From: an uncultured Collinsella sp.
Lineage (GTDB): Bacteria > Actinomycetota > Coriobacteriia > Coriobacteriales > Coriobacteriaceae
Direction of reading: 5' to 3'
Assembly (NCBI GenBank): GCA_958451615.1
Contig: CAUDQR010000007.1
Location: forward strand, 1 to 64,000
DNA: 64,000 nucleotides
Part shown: piece by piece, positions 50,788 to 61,323 of the stretch
How the letters are laid out: the number at the start of each line of letters is the position of its first letter
Numbering within the stretch: position 1 is the stretch's first letter
Notes under the pieces: model-generated
What the model was told of the DNA's origin: nothing
The model's input: the letters and a program-made list of their open reading frames with translations, nothing else
The model's database searches: none
Made by a program: the position numbers and the translations under genes

Positions 50788-51915
50788 ATGCTTTCGCGTC
50801 GTCGTTTTCTGCAACTTGTCGCGTCTTCAATTGTCGCCTTAGCCGCACGTCCGAAAGAGGTTTTTGCTTCGACGGGCAATATTGATGGTGAGCAGATACA
50901 ATTTACTTCAGAAATTGCGCAAGAGCTTGCCGATAAATATATAAAGGGACTCCTCGGCTCTTCGTATACGCCCTCTGACCCTATTCCTTTTGTAGACGTT
51001 GATGGGTCCCCGCTTGGCTACATTGTTCCGGTTGTGACATTCAATAGAGCCGCGGGCTATTTGGTTTTAGATGCTTCAGATGATGAAATACTTACGGGAT
51101 ATCGTTTTGGAGACGGCTTAGTCAGCCCTATGGATCGGGGAGGAGATCTTGGTGTTGAGTCTTATTCTTTCAATAACCCAGTCGTAATGATCAATCCATT
51201 CGAATTCGGTGTGCAATCTTTGGACGGTTCAATAACAACAAATTGCGGAAGAACAATCCCGGCTGTTTCCATAGAAGGACGGCCTGTCGTTTTATCGAAT
51301 AAACCTTCAAGCTGGAACGATGTCGTAATTTACGCAACTCAAATGCAGGATTACACAGTATCTGGATTTCGTTCCATTTCTCAGTTTATGTCATATGATG
51401 AAAGCGAGATTAAGAGGCTTACTGCCCACTATGCTTGTATGGTGACAGCTTTTTCGAACGTTGCGGAACTGTATGGCATTGCCAATTTATATAGCGACCC
51501 TTCGCAATATATGCAGATATGGAATTACACCAATACCCATGCTCTTTCCGATGAAGAACAGACTGTTCCCGGCGTTGTTTTGGGCGGAACGCCGATATCA
51601 ACCTGTGCAACGGGGTTTACAAATTACTGCGCAAGCAGAGGAAGTACTCTTATCGCCCGCACTGTCTCCTCTCCGGCTATCGCGAGCATTCAAAATGAGA
51701 TTAACTCTAATAGACCGAATGTTTTACATGCGAGTTTGTACAACGGATCAGCCCATTCTGTAACAGCGGAGGCTTACGCCACACTTACTGGTAAGAAAAC
51801 TGGAGAGACAAGGCAGATGATTGGCATAGCGGACGGCTGGAATTCATCTTTATCCTTCCTGAAGTATGATCAGAGCTATTATGCGTGGACTTATGGAACG
51901 ACTTTTTCGAAGTAG
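50788..51915 (+). CDS. Exported papain-like cysteine protease (C10/C39-like), predicted
   Basis: A 375-aa protein in an A+T-rich block. The N-terminus MLSRRRFLQLVASSIVALAA is a twin-arginine signal. Residues about 45-125 resemble the inhibitory prodomain of streptopain-like C10 peptidases (PLGYIVPVVTFNRAAGYLVLDA). A candidate nucleophile is Cys217 in AHYACMVTAFSNVAELYG, the histidine His323 in GSAHSVTAEAY, and the third residue Asp349 or Asn352 in GIADGWN. The typical CGxT context is altered, so catalysis is not assured. It overlaps a lipoprotein gene at its end. Confidence 0.6.
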   Translation: MLSRRRFLQLVASSIVALAARPKEVFASTGNIDGEQIQFTSEIAQELADKYIKGLLGSSYTPSDPIPFVDVDGSPLGYIVPVVTFNRAAGYLVLDASDDEILTGYRFGDGLVSPMDRGGDLGVESYSFNNPVVMINPFEFGVQSLDGSITTNCGRTIPAVSIEGRPVVLSNKPSSWNDVVIYATQMQDYTVSGFRSISQFMSYDESEIKRLTAHYACMVTAFSNVAELYGIANLYSDPSQYMQIWNYTNTHALSDEEQTVPGVVLGGTPISTCATGFTNYCASRGSTLIARTVSSPAIASIQNEINSNRPNVLHASLYNGSAHSVTAEAYATLTGKKTGETRQMIGIADGWNSSLSFLKYDQSYYAWTYGTTFSK

Positions 51916-52285
51916 GGCGATTCGTCTAGCTCTGTCTTTGGTGCTGATGGCTTCATTGGTGGGCTGTTCAACAAAGGAAGAGATATCGCGCGGAGGTTCC
52001 GGAGAAGTGACTGCGACAGACTCAGGTTCATTAGAAATAGCTGGCGGGCATGCCGATGTGATGTTACAAGGAGAAGGCGTGCTTAGGTCGATTGATGCTG
52101 AAGACGCTGTCTGCTCAATAGAGGATTTGAAGACAGGTGAAACTGCATCGTACCGAGTTTCAGATAATGCTGCGAATATGATTGAGTCGATACCGACTGG
52201 AGCGCAGGTTTCTTTTAGATACTTTGCTCCGCAACTTGAGGATGAGCTTGCTTCTCTGGTGTCTATATGCGCCGATGACAACTAA
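51893..52285 (+). CDS. Small lipoprotein coupled to the protease gene
   Basis: A 130-aa lipoprotein (ATG 51893; ATG 51881 and 51866 are in frame and possible). The signal ends with lipobox LVGC (Cys at about 24), followed by a Ser/Gly-rich segment and a beta-rich domain (GSLEIAGGHADVMLQGEGV and VCSIEDLKTGETASYRVSD). It overlaps the protease stop by 23 bases, so it is co-translated. It has no family that I recognise; a protease inhibitor or anchor is a guess from context. Confidence 0.6.
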   Translation: MERLFRSRAIRLALSLVLMASLVGCSTKEEISRGGSGEVTATDSGSLEIAGGHADVMLQGEGVLRSIDAEDAVCSIEDLKTGETASYRVSDNAANMIESIPTGAQVSFRYFAPQLEDELASLVSICADDN

Positions 52286-54744: not shown

Positions 54745-54918
54745 ACGGGGTCCTCCCGGTGTAAATCTGCTTCGTTTCGTGTAGCCATCAGGGTACCCAC
54801 CAGATGTGAATCGTACGTGACATTTAACAGATACCATCAACTCATCAAGGGGGCCTGCTGTCTTTGGTGCAATAGCTTGATGCTAAACTGGATTTACGAT
54901 TGCGAGGTGGTTTACGTG

Positions 54919-55137
54919 ATGTACCCGTATATGACATTCGAAGACGGTACCGAGGTCATTCATTCTGACCTGATTGCGGATGGCGATATCGAAAAGGTTA
55001 TCGTGCATTTTGAACGACCGACGGCAGAGGGCTTCGACTCCGCTCGCTGTGAATTGCCTTCCTGTTCGTGGACTGACTGGGAAGGGCATTTTACTCAGAG
55101 TGAAAAACGAGCTTTCGAAGAGTGTCTGAGCAAATAA
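54919..55137 (+). CDS. Small acidic protein at the head of the radical SAM cluster
   Basis: A 72-aa protein, ATG 54919 supported by GAGGTGG at 8 bases (GTG 54916 is an alternative). The sequence MYPYMTFEDGTEVIHSDL continues with KVIVHFERPTAEGFDSARCE and ELPSCSWTDWEGHFTQSEK. Two Cys, no membrane segment, no family recognised, although the DGTEVxHSxL opening suggests a small beta domain. It starts the A+T-rich block and is separated by 100 bases from the DUF2087 gene, so it may or may not belong to the same transcript. Confidence 0.65.
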   Translation: MYPYMTFEDGTEVIHSDLIADGDIEKVIVHFERPTAEGFDSARCELPSCSWTDWEGHFTQSEKRAFEECLSK

Positions 55138-55143
55138 TTTAGA

Positions 55144-55163
55144 TTAGTTCGAGTTTAGTTCGA
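55144..55163. promoter_or_regulatory. Direct repeat TTAGTTCGA, candidate operator
   Basis: TTAGTTCGA occurs twice with an 11-base period, one turn of the helix, in the A+T-rich stretch ahead of the DUF2087 gene. A regulator bound to one face of the DNA would fit. Confidence 0.4.
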
Positions 55164-55237
55164 ATAAAGAAGCTGAATGCGATGACCTAAAGCGTATGCA
55201 TTTTTAGTATTAGATGCGTATGAAATGGAGGATGTGA

Positions 55238-55519
55238 ATGGATGAGCTAATAGACTTTAAAAAACGATTTCTCAAGAATGGCGAGCTGGTTTCAATTCCA
55301 AAAAAGGAAAGCTATAAAAGAATCATGCTGCTATGGGCCGTCTCTTTCTTTGAATTAAATACAAGTTATACGGAGCTTCAGGTTAATCGTGTGCTGTCAC
55401 AGCTCTATCCTGATTATGCCGTGTTGAGGCGGTACTTGGTTGATTATGGATTCCTATTAAGGGATGAACGAGGCCTGAAATACGAGGTTAATCGTGATGT
55501 TCGCGGTATTGAGAGCTAG
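55238..55519 (+). CDS. DUF2087-domain protein
   Basis: A 93-aa protein. KKRFLKNGELVSIPKKESYKRIML, YTELQVNRVLSQLYPDYAVLRRYLVDYGFLLRD match the DUF2087 winged-helix-like domain, often found in regulators. SD GGAGGATG precedes the ATG. It overlaps the exporter gene by 23 bases and is therefore made with it. A role as cluster regulator or as a peptide-binding helper is inference. Confidence 0.75.
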   Translation: MDELIDFKKRFLKNGELVSIPKKESYKRIMLLWAVSFFELNTSYTELQVNRVLSQLYPDYAVLRRYLVDYGFLLRDERGLKYEVNRDVRGIES

Positions 55520-56681
55520 CCGTCCGGTTCGGGTCCTATATATTGCTAGAGGGATAAGCGAAATAGGCAATTGGTGTGCGAATATTGCTTTGCCAATGCT
55601 GATTTACGAGGTAACTCACGATGTTTCTGCAACTGCTTTGATGGTCTGCTGCAGATTTGCCCCCTCTCTGTTTTCAGTTGCGCTCGCGCAGCTGCCTCAG
55701 AAGATGGGTATCGGGACACTGCAGGCCATGAGATTGGCGGACTTAATTCGCGCGGGATTATTCGTTTGCTATATTTTTGTTGATAGTAAATGGAGTATGT
55801 TTGCTATTACGTGCACGGTATCGCTTTGCCGAACGGTAGAGATGCCCTGCTTTTACTCGTTGTTAAGAGCCAATACGAATAGTATCAATCGCGACGTAAT
55901 TAATAATTCGTTTGGGTTCCTGCAGAATTTGATGATGGTTCTGGGGCCAGTTGCCGGCGGTTTTGTTGTCGCTCAATTTGGGGCGGAGGCTGTTCTTGCA
56001 TTAGACGCGCTTTCTTTTGCCGCGTCGTTCTGGTTGCTGCGAGATGTTCCGTCGGTTATCGAGGTTAATGATAAAGAGGGAATAAGCAAAAATGAAAAAA
56101 ACAGGACTGCATTCAGTGATCTTAGCGCGAAGCACTTGGCAATTGGTTTCCTATTAATCGATATTTCTAGTGGCGTGGCATTCGGCTCTCTGAATTCTCT
56201 TTTGCCAGCTATAGCGCAATTGCAATTTGACTCGTCATCGATACAATACGGATTCCTTCAGAGTAGTCTTACAATCGGACTGTTGTTCGGAAATACAATA
56301 TATGGTCGTTTAATCGGTGGTTCCGATTGCGTTAAATCATATTGTTTTGTGACGTATCTTGCGCTCGGTGCGTATCTGGCGTTTGGCTATCGCTATGCGT
56401 CTGGGATATCGTTTATTTTCCTTTTTATCGTCGGTGCCGGAAACGCCATTCAAGATGTGCTTCTCATAACATCGCTGCAGGATTTGGCGAGAGACGGATC
56501 TGAATCGATAAGCCTGTTTTCAATTAGGGAGTCTTTGCAATCGGTTGCTGTTGTTATTTCAACACTTCTTGTTTCGCTGTTCACGAGCATCGCGATGTTC
56601 TCAATTCTCGTTACAGGACTTGGTGTATTTTCAATTATGATGGTAGTTGTGTTTCAATTGAATTATTTGCGAAAGATGTGA
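55497..56681 (+). CDS. MFS transporter of the radical SAM cluster
   Basis: A 394-aa major facilitator with about 12 membrane segments, MFS_3/EntS-like in sequence: the start VRVLYIARGISEIGNWCANIALPMLIYEVT is followed by FAPSLFSVALAQLPQKMG, and VLGPVAGGFVVAQFGAEAVLALDA is typical. The ATG 55497 is used (GAGG 9 bases upstream); GTG 55494 is possible. Such carriers export siderophores, antibiotics or small peptides. It lies between DUF2087 and the radical SAM gene, 7 bases before the latter, and most likely exports the modified peptide product. Confidence 0.85.
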   Translation: MFAVLRASRPVRVLYIARGISEIGNWCANIALPMLIYEVTHDVSATALMVCCRFAPSLFSVALAQLPQKMGIGTLQAMRLADLIRAGLFVCYIFVDSKWSMFAITCTVSLCRTVEMPCFYSLLRANTNSINRDVINNSFGFLQNLMMVLGPVAGGFVVAQFGAEAVLALDALSFAASFWLLRDVPSVIEVNDKEGISKNEKNRTAFSDLSAKHLAIGFLLIDISSGVAFGSLNSLLPAIAQLQFDSSSIQYGFLQSSLTIGLLFGNTIYGRLIGGSDCVKSYCFVTYLALGAYLAFGYRYASGISFIFLFIVGAGNAIQDVLLITSLQDLARDGSESISLFSIRESLQSVAVVISTLLVSLFTSIAMFSILVTGLGVFSIMMVVVFQLNYLRKM

Positions 56682-56688
56682 CGTTGAT

Positions 56689-59010
56689 ATGCCTAAAACG
56701 CTTTTAGTATTTCCCCCAGGATGGAGTCCAGTGGGGCCGTATCTTGCCTTGCCTGTTTTGAAGTCATATCTTCAAGAGGTTGAACAATACAAAGTTGACA
56801 TTGTTGACTTAAACGTGGAATTTTACGATGACCTCCTATCTTTTAGACATGTCGAAGAGTGCTGTAAAAGGTATCGGGAATCAAAGGATTCGTTTAGTTC
56901 GAATGTTCAATTAACAATCGAGTTGATACAAAAGTCGGCACTTAATGTTGACGAGGCAAAAGATATTTTCAGATCGAAGAGATACTTTAATCTAAAAGAA
57001 AGACAATATGCTGAAAACATTTTTAGAAATGCACTCTATATCATAAATCACGTCTCATATGGAGTTAAATACACGTTCAACTCCATAGATCTGCCCTATG
57101 ATTATTATTCGACACCAGAAATAATGAAATCGCTTGCGGATACCTTGCATAATCCGTTTATTTCCTTCTATGAAACTACCTTTCTTAAGCGTATTCAGAG
57201 GGAAAAAATCGAGTTTATTGGGATTTCGGTGAGCGGCTGTTTCCAATTGATTTCTGCAGTTACGTTAGCGAAACTGATTAAAGAAGAATGTCCATCTGTT
57301 AAACACGTCTCATTGGGCGGCAATTACATTACTCGTTTAGCAGATGACTGCATGAAAGAATGGCATCCCTTTTTTGAATACATTGATTCGATAATGATGT
57401 ATGACGGCGAAGAGCCGCTTGCACGTCTTCTTGAGGCTCTTGACTCTGGTGATGACAATCTCGACTGTGTTCCAAACCTTTGCCATGCTAAAGGTGGAAA
57501 GATATATAAAAACCATCGGATTGAGCAAACATTTATCAACGATACAGTTCCCGATTTCGATGGCTTCGCCCTTTCTAAATACTTCATGCCTGAGCTAATA
57601 TTGCCGGTTTATTCCTCTAGGCAGTGTTTTAATCATTGCGCCTTCTGCACCATTCCCGGTGCTACCGGTGGTTGTTACCGAAAGATGCCTATATCGAGAG
57701 TATTTGAAATAATGTGTCGGTTAAATGAAAAATACGGCACGAGAGTTTTCTCTTTTGCGGATGAAACATTCGAAGGCAAAAGAATGGAGCAACTCGCGGA
57801 TGAAATAAACGCATCGGGAAAAACGTTTTTCTGGCATGGAGAAACGAGGTTCTCTCCAACCCTAAGTACAGACGTTTTTAACAAGATATACCAAAGTGGA
57901 TGTAGGCAGATTCAGTTTGGCCTCGAGTCATACAACCAAAGAGTTCTTGATCTAATGAAGAAGAACACGAGAGTTGATTGGATTGATCGCAATATCCATG
58001 ATTGTCTCAATGCGGGTATTCCTGTTCATCTATTTTTTATGATTGGCTTTCCGACCGAAACTAAAGAAGAGGCTCTGAACACCTTAGCTTATACAGAGAA
58101 TGTTTTGAATTATTCAAAACAGGTATGTGGTGTTCCATATTCCACGAGAGGATTTACGAATTTTGGTCTCGTTATGGGGTCGGATGTTTGGAATCATCCC
58201 GATAAGTATGGTGTCTCTGTAATGCCGAAGTCCCAATATGAGGATTTGCGCCTCGAAGTGGATTATGTTTCAGGCACTGGTTTAACTTTAAATGAAGCAA
58301 AATCCTTATCTGATGAGCATCATATTGATTTTTATATGCAAGAGGTCATAAACGGTAGCGACACAATTGACTTGCCCCAGCGGCTTCATATTTCAGAGGT
58401 GACCTGGATCCTAGATTCTATTCACGCTGTCAGGTATAAGGGACATTTGACCATAGTAAAGCGACGGCTAACTAGTCTAAATCCAGCTGATCGAATCTGG
58501 CTGGATTCCAAGACCTCTGTCGTGCTCGTTGAGCCATTTGCCTACTTCTATAATTCTGAATACCATCATGTCTATGCTGTTTCCCAGTTGGTATACCTTA
58601 AGTTGGCCCGTTTATTGGAGGCCGATTGTAGCATTTCTCTTATTCTTGATCAGGGCGACCTCGAGCTGACAAGGGCGATAGAAGAACTGTTGCATTATGG
58701 ATTGCTGAATACAAATATCGATGCCGATTATGTAATGCACGATAATGGTTTTCAATTGGTTAAAAGTTCGTTTGTTAAAGAAGTCGGACGCTCAAAAGAG
58801 GGGTTAAGAGTACTGCTTAGTTGTGCCACCCATAGAATGTGTGCGGTTAATGATTTTTCGTTCGCTTTGCTTTCGTTGTTTGAAAAGCCGATTACTAAGA
58901 ACGAGGTGCGCGACATTCTGAAAAAAGAGGGACTATCGACAAGCGAGGAGCAATTAAACAAGTTGGTTGATAATTGCATGAAAGCAGATATACTACAATT
59001 GATTAGATAG
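56689..59010 (+). CDS. B12-binding-domain radical SAM enzyme, predicted peptide-modifying
   Basis: A 773-aa enzyme. Residues about 1-290 resemble a cobalamin-binding domain (LLVFPPGWSPVGPYLALPVL; later IGISVSGCFQLISAVTLAK and SLGGNYITRLADDC). The 4Fe-4S/SAM motif CFNHCAFC has cysteines 313, 317 and 320, followed by GCRQIQFGLESYNQRVLDLM and HLFFMIGFPTETKEEAL, as in B12-dependent radical SAM enzymes. The last 200 residues hold two winged-helix-like segments (HHVYAVSQLVYLKLARLLEA and MCAVNDFSFALLSLFEKPIT) reminiscent of PqqD-like peptide-binding tails. A 36-codon precursor-like ORF lies 13 bases downstream. The modification (methylation, ring formation or other) is unknown. Confidence 0.85.
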   Translation: MPKTLLVFPPGWSPVGPYLALPVLKSYLQEVEQYKVDIVDLNVEFYDDLLSFRHVEECCKRYRESKDSFSSNVQLTIELIQKSALNVDEAKDIFRSKRYFNLKERQYAENIFRNALYIINHVSYGVKYTFNSIDLPYDYYSTPEIMKSLADTLHNPFISFYETTFLKRIQREKIEFIGISVSGCFQLISAVTLAKLIKEECPSVKHVSLGGNYITRLADDCMKEWHPFFEYIDSIMMYDGEEPLARLLEALDSGDDNLDCVPNLCHAKGGKIYKNHRIEQTFINDTVPDFDGFALSKYFMPELILPVYSSRQCFNHCAFCTIPGATGGCYRKMPISRVFEIMCRLNEKYGTRVFSFADETFEGKRMEQLADEINASGKTFFWHGETRFSPTLSTDVFNKIYQSGCRQIQFGLESYNQRVLDLMKKNTRVDWIDRNIHDCLNAGIPVHLFFMIGFPTETKEEALNTLAYTENVLNYSKQVCGVPYSTRGFTNFGLVMGSDVWNHPDKYGVSVMPKSQYEDLRLEVDYVSGTGLTLNEAKSLSDEHHIDFYMQEVINGSDTIDLPQRLHISEVTWILDSIHAVRYKGHLTIVKRRLTSLNPADRIWLDSKTSVVLVEPFAYFYNSEYHHVYAVSQLVYLKLARLLEADCSISLILDQGDLELTRAIEELLHYGLLNTNIDADYVMHDNGFQLVKSSFVKEVGRSKEGLRVLLSCATHRMCAVNDFSFALLSLFEKPITKNEVRDILKKEGLSTSEEQLNKLVDNCMKADILQLIR

Positions 59011-59023
59011 AGGAGGTTTCTGC

Positions 59024-59134
59024 ATGGACGTTATTAACAAAGATCTCTTGGAGCAACTGAAAGAGTCTCAGGAAGAGGGCGTCGTGGTAGAAGTGTTCGA
59101 CTTTGAGGACTACATGGATAAATTCTGCCATTAG
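59024..59134 (+). CDS. Putative RiPP precursor peptide
   Basis: A 36-codon ORF that begins 8 bases after AGAGGAGG, the strongest ribosome site in the cluster, and directly follows the radical SAM gene. The N-terminal part MDVINKDLLEQLKESQEE is a helical acidic leader-like segment. After a Gly and a short Val-rich stretch, the C-terminal part FDFEDYMDKFCH has aromatic residues, a single Cys and a terminal His, plausible modification targets. A terminator follows 24 bases later. Short length, location and leader-like composition fit a precursor; no homologue is known to me. Confidence 0.7.
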   Translation: MDVINKDLLEQLKESQEEGVVVEVFDFEDYMDKFCH

Positions 59135-59158
59135 TTTCGGAATTTACTTGCCTCGCTT

Positions 59159-59193
59159 AAAGGAGAAGTCGATTATCGATTTCTCCTTTTTTA
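59159..59193 (+). terminator. Terminator of the radical SAM/precursor cluster
   Basis: AAAGGAGAA pairs with TTCTCCTTT around a loop with TCGATTATCGA, then TTTT. It marks the end of the A+T-rich block. Confidence 0.85.
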
Positions 59194-59322
59194 ATTAAAG
59201 ATATTTTTGGAATACATGCTCTTAGCACAGGTTAGCGTCTCAGTAAACTGGGAGGTTGCTTTGGCTAGTTAGAGATATGTGAACGTCCGTTAGACTGAAT
59301 CTCAGGGTAGAAGGGGCCTCCA

Positions 59323-61323
59323 GTGTCCAGATCAACAAGGCAATGCTGCGTTTCGGCTAATAAGAACGACGGCTTTCTGCGGGTTGCGGCGGCGTCGCCG
59401 CGGATTCGCGTGGCCGATGTCGAGGGCAATGCCGAGGTTGCACTGGCGGCTGTTCGCGAGGCTGCCGAGCGTGGCGTTCGCGCGCTGGTGCTGCCCGAGC
59501 TTAACCTGACCGGCTATACCGCGGCCGATCTGTTCCATAACCGCACACTGCTGCATGCCTGCGAGACCGCACTGGCACATATTCTCGATGAAACTCGCGA
59601 GCTGCCGATTGTCTTTACCGTCGGTCTTCCCGTTGCGGTTGCCGAGAATATCTACAACTGCGCCGCCGTGTGCTGCGCGGGCGAGCTTTTGGGCCTCACG
59701 GCCAAGAAGTATTTGCCCAACTATGGCGAGTTCTATGAGCGCCGTTGGTTTGCTCCGGCACCTACCGATCCCGTTTGGCTTGAATTTGCCGGTCAGGGTC
59801 CGGTCCCGCTGGGCTCGGGGCTTGTCTACCGTTGCTGTGATGAGGGCGCCGAGGACCTGGTGCTGGGCGTTGAGGTCTGCGAGGACCTGTGGGTGCCGGC
59901 GCCTCCTTCGACCGAGATGGCGCTTGCCGGTGCGACGGTGATTCTCAACCCGTCGGCTTCGGACGAGATTATCGGTAAGGCAGACTATCGCCGCAGCCTC
60001 ATCTCCAATCAGAGCGCGCGCCTGTACTGTGCCTATGCGTATGCAGACGCGAGCGAGGGCGAGTCCACGACCGATATGGTCTTTGCGGGCGAGAACCTCG
60101 TCTACGAAAACGGCTCCAAGCTCGCCGCGACCAAACTGCTTACTTGCGATATGGCCATCGCCGACGTTGACCTTGACCGCCTGGTTGCCGAGCGCCGTCG
60201 TTCGACGACGTGGACGCGCGCGGACGATGCGCCGGAGGCCACGGCCGTTGAGTTTTCGTTTGAGGGCGTGTTGGCCGAAGAGCCTGTCCTGCGCGATGCC
60301 TGCGATATCGACCGCGTTTTCCCGCGCGCGCCCTTTGTACCGGCCGACCATGGTGACCTGGCCGAGCGCTGCGAGACCATCCTCGACCTGCAGACCGCCG
60401 GCCTCAAGACCCGCCTGGCCCATACGGGCACCAAGGCTGCAGTCATCGGTCTTTCGGGCGGCCTTGATTCTACACTGGCACTGCTCGTGACGGTGCGTGC
60501 CTTCGATGCACTGGGGCTGCCGCGCACGGGTATTACGGCGGTTTCCATGCCCGGCTTTGGCACGACGCATCGCACCAAGTCCAATGCCGAGTCGCTTGCC
60601 CGCGACCTGGGTGTGAGCTTCCGTGAGGTTTCGATTCACGCGGCCGTGGAACAGCACTTTAAGGATATCGAGCATGATCCGGCCGTGCAGGACGTGACCT
60701 ACGAGAACAGCCAGGCCCGCGAGCGTACGCAGATTCTGATGGATCTGGCCAATCAGGCCGGCGGTTTTGTCATCGGCACGGGCGACCTGTCGGAGCTGGC
60801 GCTCGGCTGGGCTACCTACAACGGCGACCACATGAGCATGTACGCCGTCAACGCGAGCGTGCCCAAGACGCTTGTGCGCCATCTGGTGCGCTATGCCGCT
60901 GATGTTTTTGGCGGGCGTATTGCCGAGGTCTTGCTCGATATCCTCGATACGCCGGTGTCCCCCGAGCTTCTGCCGCCCACGGGCGACGGCGAGATTGCGC
61001 AGAAGACTGAGGATTTGGTGGGCCCGTACGAGCTGCACGACTACTTCCTCTACTACCTGCTGCGTTTTGGCTTTGAGCCGGGCAAGATCTACCGCATGGC
61101 GCTCAAGAGCTTCGAGGGCGCCTACGACGTCAAGACCGTTCACACGTGGCTGCGTACGTTCTACCGTCGCTTCTTTGCCCAGCAGTTTAAGCGCAGCTGC
61201 CTGCCCGATGGCCCCAAGGTGGGTTCGGTCACGCTCAGCCCGCGCGGCGATTGGCGCATGCCGAGTGACGCCAGCTCGCGCCTGTGGCTCGCCCAGATTG
61301 ACGCGCTCAATCCGATGGACTAA
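59323..61323 (+). CDS. nadE: Glutamine-dependent NAD+ synthetase
   Basis: Two-domain enzyme of 666 aa. The N-terminal nitrilase-type glutaminase has catalytic Glu in VLPELNLTGY, Lys in KKYLPNYGEFYERRWF and Cys in VEVCEDLWVP. The C-terminal synthetase has the PP-loop GLSGGLDSTLALL near residue 385. Ammonia passes from one to the other to make NAD+ from nicotinate adenine dinucleotide. The GTG at 59323 follows AAGGGG. It is monocistronic. Confidence 0.94.
   Translation: MSRSTRQCCVSANKNDGFLRVAAASPRIRVADVEGNAEVALAAVREAAERGVRALVLPELNLTGYTAADLFHNRTLLHACETALAHILDETRELPIVFTVGLPVAVAENIYNCAAVCCAGELLGLTAKKYLPNYGEFYERRWFAPAPTDPVWLEFAGQGPVPLGSGLVYRCCDEGAEDLVLGVEVCEDLWVPAPPSTEMALAGATVILNPSASDEIIGKADYRRSLISNQSARLYCAYAYADASEGESTTDMVFAGENLVYENGSKLAATKLLTCDMAIADVDLDRLVAERRRSTTWTRADDAPEATAVEFSFEGVLAEEPVLRDACDIDRVFPRAPFVPADHGDLAERCETILDLQTAGLKTRLAHTGTKAAVIGLSGGLDSTLALLVTVRAFDALGLPRTGITAVSMPGFGTTHRTKSNAESLARDLGVSFREVSIHAAVEQHFKDIEHDPAVQDVTYENSQARERTQILMDLANQAGGFVIGTGDLSELALGWATYNGDHMSMYAVNASVPKTLVRHLVRYAADVFGGRIAEVLLDILDTPVSPELLPPTGDGEIAQKTEDLVGPYELHDYFLYYLLRFGFEPGKIYRMALKSFEGAYDVKTVHTWLRTFYRRFFAQQFKRSCLPDGPKVGSVTLSPRGDWRMPSDASSRLWLAQIDALNPMD

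Follow-up and report, generated by a model that had tools for sequence, protein, structure and literature searches.

A RiPP-type cassette with a predicted B12-binding radical SAM enzyme on an accessory island in Collinsella

When a gene of only 36 codons directly follows that of a B12-binding radical S-adenosylmethionine (SAM) enzyme, the question arises whether it encodes the substrate of this enzyme and, if so, what becomes of the peptide. Such a pair is found in an uncultured Collinsella sp. (assembly GCA_958451615.1, contig CAUDQR010000007.1, positions 1 to 64,000 of the forward strand; these 64,000 nucleotides in full are called the window here). A first-pass annotation had described the pair as the end of a row of four packed genes, preceded by genes for a DUF2087 protein and an exporter of the major facilitator superfamily (MFS), and had recognized in it the layout of a system for ribosomally synthesized and post-translationally modified peptides (RiPPs). 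Three observations support this reading: the synteny is conserved, the enzyme contains domains that resemble recognition elements, and the precursor has a conserved tail. The locus is a cassette of the RiPP type, carried on an island absent from some strains, and its enzyme falls outside the named classes. The small open reading frame (ORF) comprises:

59024..59134, + strand: gene of a 36-aa precursor peptide, MDVINKDLLEQLKESQEEGVVVEVFDFEDYMDKFCH, with the conserved K33-F34 at 59120-59125
59010..59016, + strand: Shine-Dalgarno-like GAGGAGG of the small ORF

Eight loci of the family, gathered by enzyme or enzyme-profile search, were compared. Their hosts belong to the Coriobacteriia and the Bacillota, and besides the window they include Olsenella (L029), Clostridium sp. 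12(A) (L027) and [C.] aerotolerans (L030), which are close kin among the eight, Tumebacillus (L028), a genome from the same phylum as Tumebacillus (L039), Paraclostridium (L031), and L038. All eight carry an ORF of 33-49 aa at the 3' end of the enzyme gene, which is located 13-32 nt past this gene in five loci and 105 nt past it in L038, and overlaps it in L031 and L039. Homologues without such an ORF had been named beforehand as the observation that would speak against a RiPP system, and none was seen among the eight. The first-pass annotation had also expected the ORF after each homologue to be acidic and to have a C-terminal cysteine. Here, only the ORF itself held up: a cysteine follows the conserved aromatic residue in only three of the eight loci and is no hallmark, and the precursor of L031 has a net charge of +6.

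An alignment of seven precursors revealed a shared plan, i.e., a helix-like LLExLKE, then [I/V]xxE, and a tail with [K/Q][Y/F]. In all eight loci, the ORF ends in [K/Q][Y/F] followed by 1-3 residues. The motif was defined on seven loci, with L039 as the sole held-out locus; its ORF, read after the motif had been fixed, ends in ...HTKYA. The enzyme gene of L039 is fragmented, with transposase-like genes separating the fragments, and the MFS gene there is split as well, but the precursor is complete. The aromatic residue is Tyr in most lineages and Phe34 in the window, Gln replaces Lys in L031 and L038, and the residues past the pair vary by lineage (CH, CN, AT, SP, AAA, CLK, V, A). In a chosen set of distinct full-length precursors, the pair is followed by 1-3 residues in 11 of 11. 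First-order Markov sequences produced an ORF of 28-60 aa with a leading Shine-Dalgarno sequence and a [KQ][YF] tail at a rate of 0.3-1.5% per locus; at randomly chosen places in the loci, a control that covers those other than L039, the rate was 0.3-2.4%. Seven of the eight loci pass this test, whereas L038, with no matched Shine-Dalgarno sequence, fails it. Judged by this conservation, the 36-codon ORF is a real gene, beyond chance.

A search of 5.8 billion proteins with a precursor profile gave 46 matches at E<=10, of which all but two (44) reached E<0.001; they are mostly variants of the Collinsella peptide, query members included. The last twelve residues, FDFEDYMDKFCH, are unchanged in P0134 and P0144 despite a different leader; the presumed partners of these peptides are the enzymes P0013 and P0011 (67% identity over 69% of the query and 60% over 92%, respectively). 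A search from divergent seeds yielded 10 matches and no new lineage, and its only new entry, P0167, is the L039 peptide. No description of the peptide family was found in the literature searched, the scope of which excluded most subscription papers and the 2022 atlas of radical-SAM RiPPs.

The probable partner of this peptide has the following parts, where RRE stands for RiPP recognition element:

56689..59010, + strand: predicted B12-binding radical SAM enzyme, 773 aa, probable maturase of the precursor
57625..57648, + strand: CxxxCxxC [4Fe-4S] motif (C313, C317 and C320), from a 23-row alignment
58486..58713, + strand: first PqqD/RRE-like domain, residues about 600-675
58744..59007, + strand: second PqqD/RRE-like domain, residues about 686-773

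In the protein search with the enzyme, 7995 candidates were scored and 120 of the 289 matches were listed; the alignment contains 23 family rows. When genomes were sampled with the enzyme profile, family members turned up in 2/397, 3/398, 9/395, 1/45 and 1/71 of them, in samples that overlap and with the seeds counted among the matches. The Radical_SAM model of Pfam matches the enzyme with an E value of 6.5e-18, and the cysteines of the CxxxCxxC motif are kept in the 23 rows, except for a change of C317 to Ser in one of them (P0038). The B12-binding model PF02310 scores 20 bits, below its gathering score of 32.1, and is found in 10 of the 23 rows at E<=0.1. The predicted fold of residues 1-585 resembles OxsB and TsrM and matches the cobalamin-bound structures of both. 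The two winged-helix-like segments at the C terminus, which had been noticed earlier, are, as judged from homologue sequences and the predicted fold, tandem PqqD-like RREs. A single modifying enzyme would then join a predicted OxsB/TsrM fold to two PqqD-like domains; we know of no tandem RRE-like tail in OxsB or TsrM themselves, which (PDB 5ul4 and 6wtf) share 16-18% identity with the enzyme over the aligned part and act on other substrates.

Variants of the enzyme occur, and its homologues extend to Lactococcus (P0038) and Fusobacterium (P0040). Both P0038 and P0055, from Lactococcus lactis, have Ser at the second Cys of the motif, while P0049-P0054 are ~58 residues shorter than P0038 and keep the three Cys. 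In six clusters of 1053-aa proteins (P0002-P0007), MFS and radical SAM protein are joined in one frame, apparently through loss of the 3' end of the MFS gene and the 5' end of the enzyme gene; the junction residues vary slightly, and the fusion may be biology or an assembly artefact. A read-through fusion considered as a test of leader docking was dropped, as the C-terminal part of L029 aligned at only 8-21% identity.

The failure of the first-pass annotation to place the enzyme in a named RiPP class was justified. All 24 listed NCBIfam matches are far below their cut-offs, including the best one, TIGR03975 (rSAM_ocin_1, a RiPP maturation radical SAM C-methyltransferase), with 118.7 bits against 281.85 over residues 6-519. 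Although this is the closest model, the window enzyme is no member, and its tandem RRE tail falls outside the matched part. The ApyD model NF050148 gave 85.2 bits against 750. Characterized non-peptide classes, which had been raised as an alternative home for the enzyme, do not accommodate it either: among the listed matches, the hopanoid-type models HpnJ (TIGR03471, 85.5 bits against 577.6) and HpnR (TIGR04367, 47.7 against 650), the model for the phosphonate-type PhpK P-methylases (TIGR04479, 104.7 against 600) and BchE (TIGR02026, 58 against 481.35) all remain below cut-off. No SPASM model was listed for the enzyme in a general Pfam scan (E<=1) or against NCBIfam (E<=0.1), which were the only searches for an auxiliary cluster.

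Among described systems, the aminopyruvatide (apy) clusters are similar in that the RRE-containing B12-radical-SAM enzyme ApyD forms beta-methyltyrosine at the penultimate, i.e., near-terminal, Tyr of the precursor ApyA (PMC10635010). A multinuclear non-heme iron-dependent oxidase (MNIO) is a partner in apy (PMC10635010), and an MNIO gene (PF05114, E 1.7e-18) is also found beside the Tumebacillus member, where it follows the precursor gene together with the gene of a 241-aa protein without Pfam match (L028:10649-12222). This points to a variant of the pathway that uses a second enzyme. Unlike in apy, the ORFs of the Collinsella island include no cytochrome P450, methyltransferase or MNIO, the precursor is different, and the enzyme has two RRE-like domains. 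PbsB of biphenomycin-like clusters is likewise a B12-radical-SAM RiPP enzyme that acts on aromatic residues and has an MFS gene in its cluster, but it requires ortho-Tyr made by an MNIO and joins two aromatics (PMC12257519), whereas the Collinsella family shares one aromatic and the island has no MNIO.

What, then, would the enzyme do? The arrangement that we consider somewhat favored is a one-enzyme RiPP system in which the leader docks on the RREs, the near-terminal aromatic residue is modified, most likely by C-methylation, and the product is exported by the MFS protein. The leader would consist of the helix-like LLEQLKESQEE and the strand-like GVVVEVFDF, and the core would be the tail, about DYMDKFCH. 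Bound by the tandem PqqD/RRE-like domains at the C terminus of the enzyme, the peptide would present its aromatic residue, Phe34 here, to the cobalamin and [4Fe-4S]/SAM sites, and methylation might occur, e.g., at the beta-carbon as in ApyD. The exporter would release the product and perhaps confer self-resistance, and the DUF2087 protein probably sets the expression of the precursor, as BtmL does for bottromycin. C-methylation of the aromatic is favored since Lys/Gln and the near-end aromatic are the only features common to the eight precursors. Weighing against the conservation of the tail is the fact that only 31 of the 46 profile matches end in [KQ][YF] plus 1-3 residues; one match, P0123, continues beyond the tail.

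As it is the pair [KQ][YF], and not the aromatic alone, that is kept in the 11 chosen precursors, the enzyme might instead crosslink Lys/Gln to Tyr/Phe, or act on another nearby carbon, without methylation. PbsB is an example of a B12-radical-SAM RiPP enzyme that is capable of C-C crosslinking (PMC12257519). In view of the single aromatic in the tail of L028, a biaryl link is unlikely; in addition, Gln replaces Lys in two lineages (L031 and L038). Moreover, known B12-radical-SAM enzymes are mostly methylases, and a crosslink is, on balance, unlikely. The peptide could also be a carrier, from which a modified tail residue is cut off as a small molecule, like pyrroloquinoline quinone (PQQ), mycofactocin or the pearlins, and exported. 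The PqqD-like domains, the position of the conserved residue 1-3 residues from the end and an exporter of the MFS rather than a peptidase-containing ABC type would suit a carrier; however, no peptidase, peptide aminoacyl-tRNA ligase (PEARL) or further maturation gene was found among the ORFs of the island, and last residues that vary by lineage do not suggest one fixed small product. We regard a carrier as distinctly improbable. Finally, the short ORF could encode a toxin or a regulatory peptide while the enzyme acts on a lipid, tRNA or small molecule, and models of hopanoid-, phosphonate- and tRNA-type enzymes do match the same core. Their scores far below cut-off, the binding of leaders by RRE-like domains elsewhere, and the presence of the ORF with its conserved tail at the 3' end of the enzyme gene in all eight loci leave little room for this explanation.

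The other elements of the cluster are:

55238..55519, + strand: DUF2087 protein, 93 aa, probable regulator of the cluster (PF09860, E 4.5e-20)
55497..56681, + strand: MFS exporter, EntS/TIGR00900-like, both below curated cut-off
59159..59189, + strand: terminator-like hairpin with T tract (14 pairs, T-rich after)

The coordinates confirm the tight packing reported earlier, with an overlap between the DUF2087 and MFS genes of 23 nt when counted from the ATG of the latter (26 nt from a GTG at 55494), and spacers of 7 nt between the MFS and enzyme genes and 13 nt between the enzyme gene and the small ORF. The single terminator proposed for the end of the cluster was also recovered as the hairpin above. 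As the hairpin scan of the stretch gave 6 such sites versus 4.0 in shuffled sequences, the scan by itself is weak evidence for a terminator. An MFS gene is located near the enzyme gene in all eight loci, and in most of them it adjoins the enzyme or precursor gene; it lies beyond the DUF2087 gene in L027, L030 and L038, and in the Olsenella locus MFS genes flank the enzyme gene on both sides, the downstream one just below the gathering score. A DUF2087 gene is present in five of the eight loci. It encodes a stand-alone protein in the window and Olsenella, whereas the DUF2087 of L027 and L030 is fused to a helix-turn-helix of the LuxR type and that of L038 to one of the ArsR type; none was found in L028, L031 and L039 by tblastn (E 0.01). 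In L027 (12673-13404) and L030 (12877-13608), a LytTR response-regulator gene is located 3' of the MFS gene, as identified by a Pfam scan in L027 only.

A precedent for the DUF2087 gene of the cassette is BtmL of the bottromycin (btm) cluster, which selectively raises transcription of the precursor gene (PMC7113386). As described there, btm also combines a DUF2087 regulator with cobalamin-dependent radical SAM methyltransferases, but it has a different precursor and several methyltransferases (PMC7113386). The four genes of the cassette are A+T-rich (GC 0.40-0.45), in contrast to both flanks (0.62-0.63), as the first-pass annotation had noted. The chemistry of bottromycin itself is YcaO-based.

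The extent of the A+T-rich segment was delimited as follows:

54849..59367, no strand: accessory island carrying the whole cassette; five related genomes have 123 native nt in its place
54919..55137, + strand: 72-codon ORF of unassigned kind, without Pfam match and, among the fetched loci, found in Collinsella only

Position 54919, earlier taken as the start of the cluster with the DUF2087 gene, is thus the start of a separate ORF, and the edges of the 4.5-kb island are 54849 and 59367. Both flanks were compared in ten Collinsella genomes picked from those already searched. Five carry the cassette (G001, G007, G008, G010 and G024), and five are cassette-free at the same site (G003, G004, G011, G015 and G992); in all of the latter, the alignment ends at window position 54848 and restarts at 59368, and the gap is filled by native sequence of 123 nt. 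The island displaced the native 5' end of nadE, including its start (window 59323-59400): the empty allele begins with MNLHLSQSDGFLRVAA, whereas in the window the frame has a new start and reads ...ANKNDGFLRVAA. The N terminus of NadE in carriers therefore differs, as the native first codons were swapped out.

Between the window and L057, for example, 22 of 448 sites differ in the left flank, 16 of 1188 in the MFS gene, 20 of 2322 in the enzyme gene and 40 of 493 in the nadE flank. The greater likeness between strains in the cassette genes than in the flanks fits a spread of the cassette among strains through homologous recombination. Other origins were rejected: the island has no megablast match to phage records and no relative in viral contigs, and no plasmid record has a single match that spans 80% of the enzyme (the 91 matches are partial, all <60% identity). 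The Lactococcus homologue P0038 gave no phage match either. PADLOC matched none of five proteins, which argues against a defence system.

In Collinsella, production of the peptide looks to have been lost recently and recurrently. Eight carriers were examined (G001, G007, G008, G010, G024, G031, G993 and G996; loci L041-L047, L049 and L050), and the enzyme gene has a lesion in seven of them; it is intact in G024 and in the window. In G010, the start codon is changed from ATG to ATA, G993 and G007 have stops at codons 11 and 29, respectively, and in G008 2 nt are inserted near codon 16. All three of the small lesions that truncate the enzyme lie in codons 1-29 out of 773 (5e-5 under a uniform distribution, a pattern noticed post hoc). 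Contigs break within the enzyme at residues about 198 (G031), 748 (G001) and 751 (G996). The breaks in G031 and G996 lead into many-copy DNA, the broken end of G001 resembles that of G996, and the two pieces of G031 share 5 nt, as after transposition of an insertion sequence; these are putative insertion-type lesions, seen at contig ends. The other genes are mostly intact, i.e., DUF2087 in 8/8, MFS in 7/8 (a 1-nt insertion in G001) and the precursor in 6/6 on the fetched stretch. An excess of lesions in the enzyme over the other cassette genes is not significant (7/8 at a length share of 0.564, P = 0.073), and the precursor is not spared from loss: the protein database contains 14 precursor variants of the Collinsella type with a lost, altered (P0140) or run-on (P0135) tail (P0135, P0140, P0145, P0148, P0151, P0153, P0157-P0159, P0161 and P0163-P0166), several of which shift frame at or just past FDFED, and some of which may be contig ends or read errors.

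The cassette genes are under purifying selection. In eight alleles, including that of the window, the ratio of nonsynonymous to synonymous polymorphism (pN/pS) is 0.11 for the enzyme, 0.24 for MFS and 0.18 for DUF2087, and it is 0.16 for the precursor (six alleles, few sites). Since these ratios are low, the losses look recent. Production would be lost through damage to the enzyme gene, either close to the 5' end or caused by insertion sequences, or to the tail of the peptide, while exporter and regulator persist. This pattern is compatible with immune non-producers, the boldest of three explanations, with a cost of the enzyme, and with the decay of a cassette that was useful until recently. 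A more far-reaching proposal, which we put forward tentatively as it may well prove wrong, is that one B12-radical-SAM enzyme with tandem recognition elements defines a new RiPP class, that the product is a bacteriocin or signal of gut bacteria, that selection repeatedly makes immune non-producers, and that the cassette spreads by recombination at the nadE locus.

Collinsella aerofaciens is a common species of the human gut. The window is chromosomal DNA of the C. aerofaciens group, and near-identical enzymes are present in records named C. aerofaciens. The species offers natural strains with an intact enzyme, with a broken enzyme and without the cassette at one site, and thus the role of the peptide, and who bears its cost, can be tested with existing isolates. 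The cassette would add a RiPP family without a name in the libraries searched, and B12-radical-SAM enzymes of this kind form C-C bonds that are difficult to obtain by chemical synthesis.

A second A+T-rich patch is located at window 50788-52000 (GC 0.455 at 51001-52000) and encodes a 375-aa protein with an Arg-Arg signal-like N terminus and without a convincing Pfam match.

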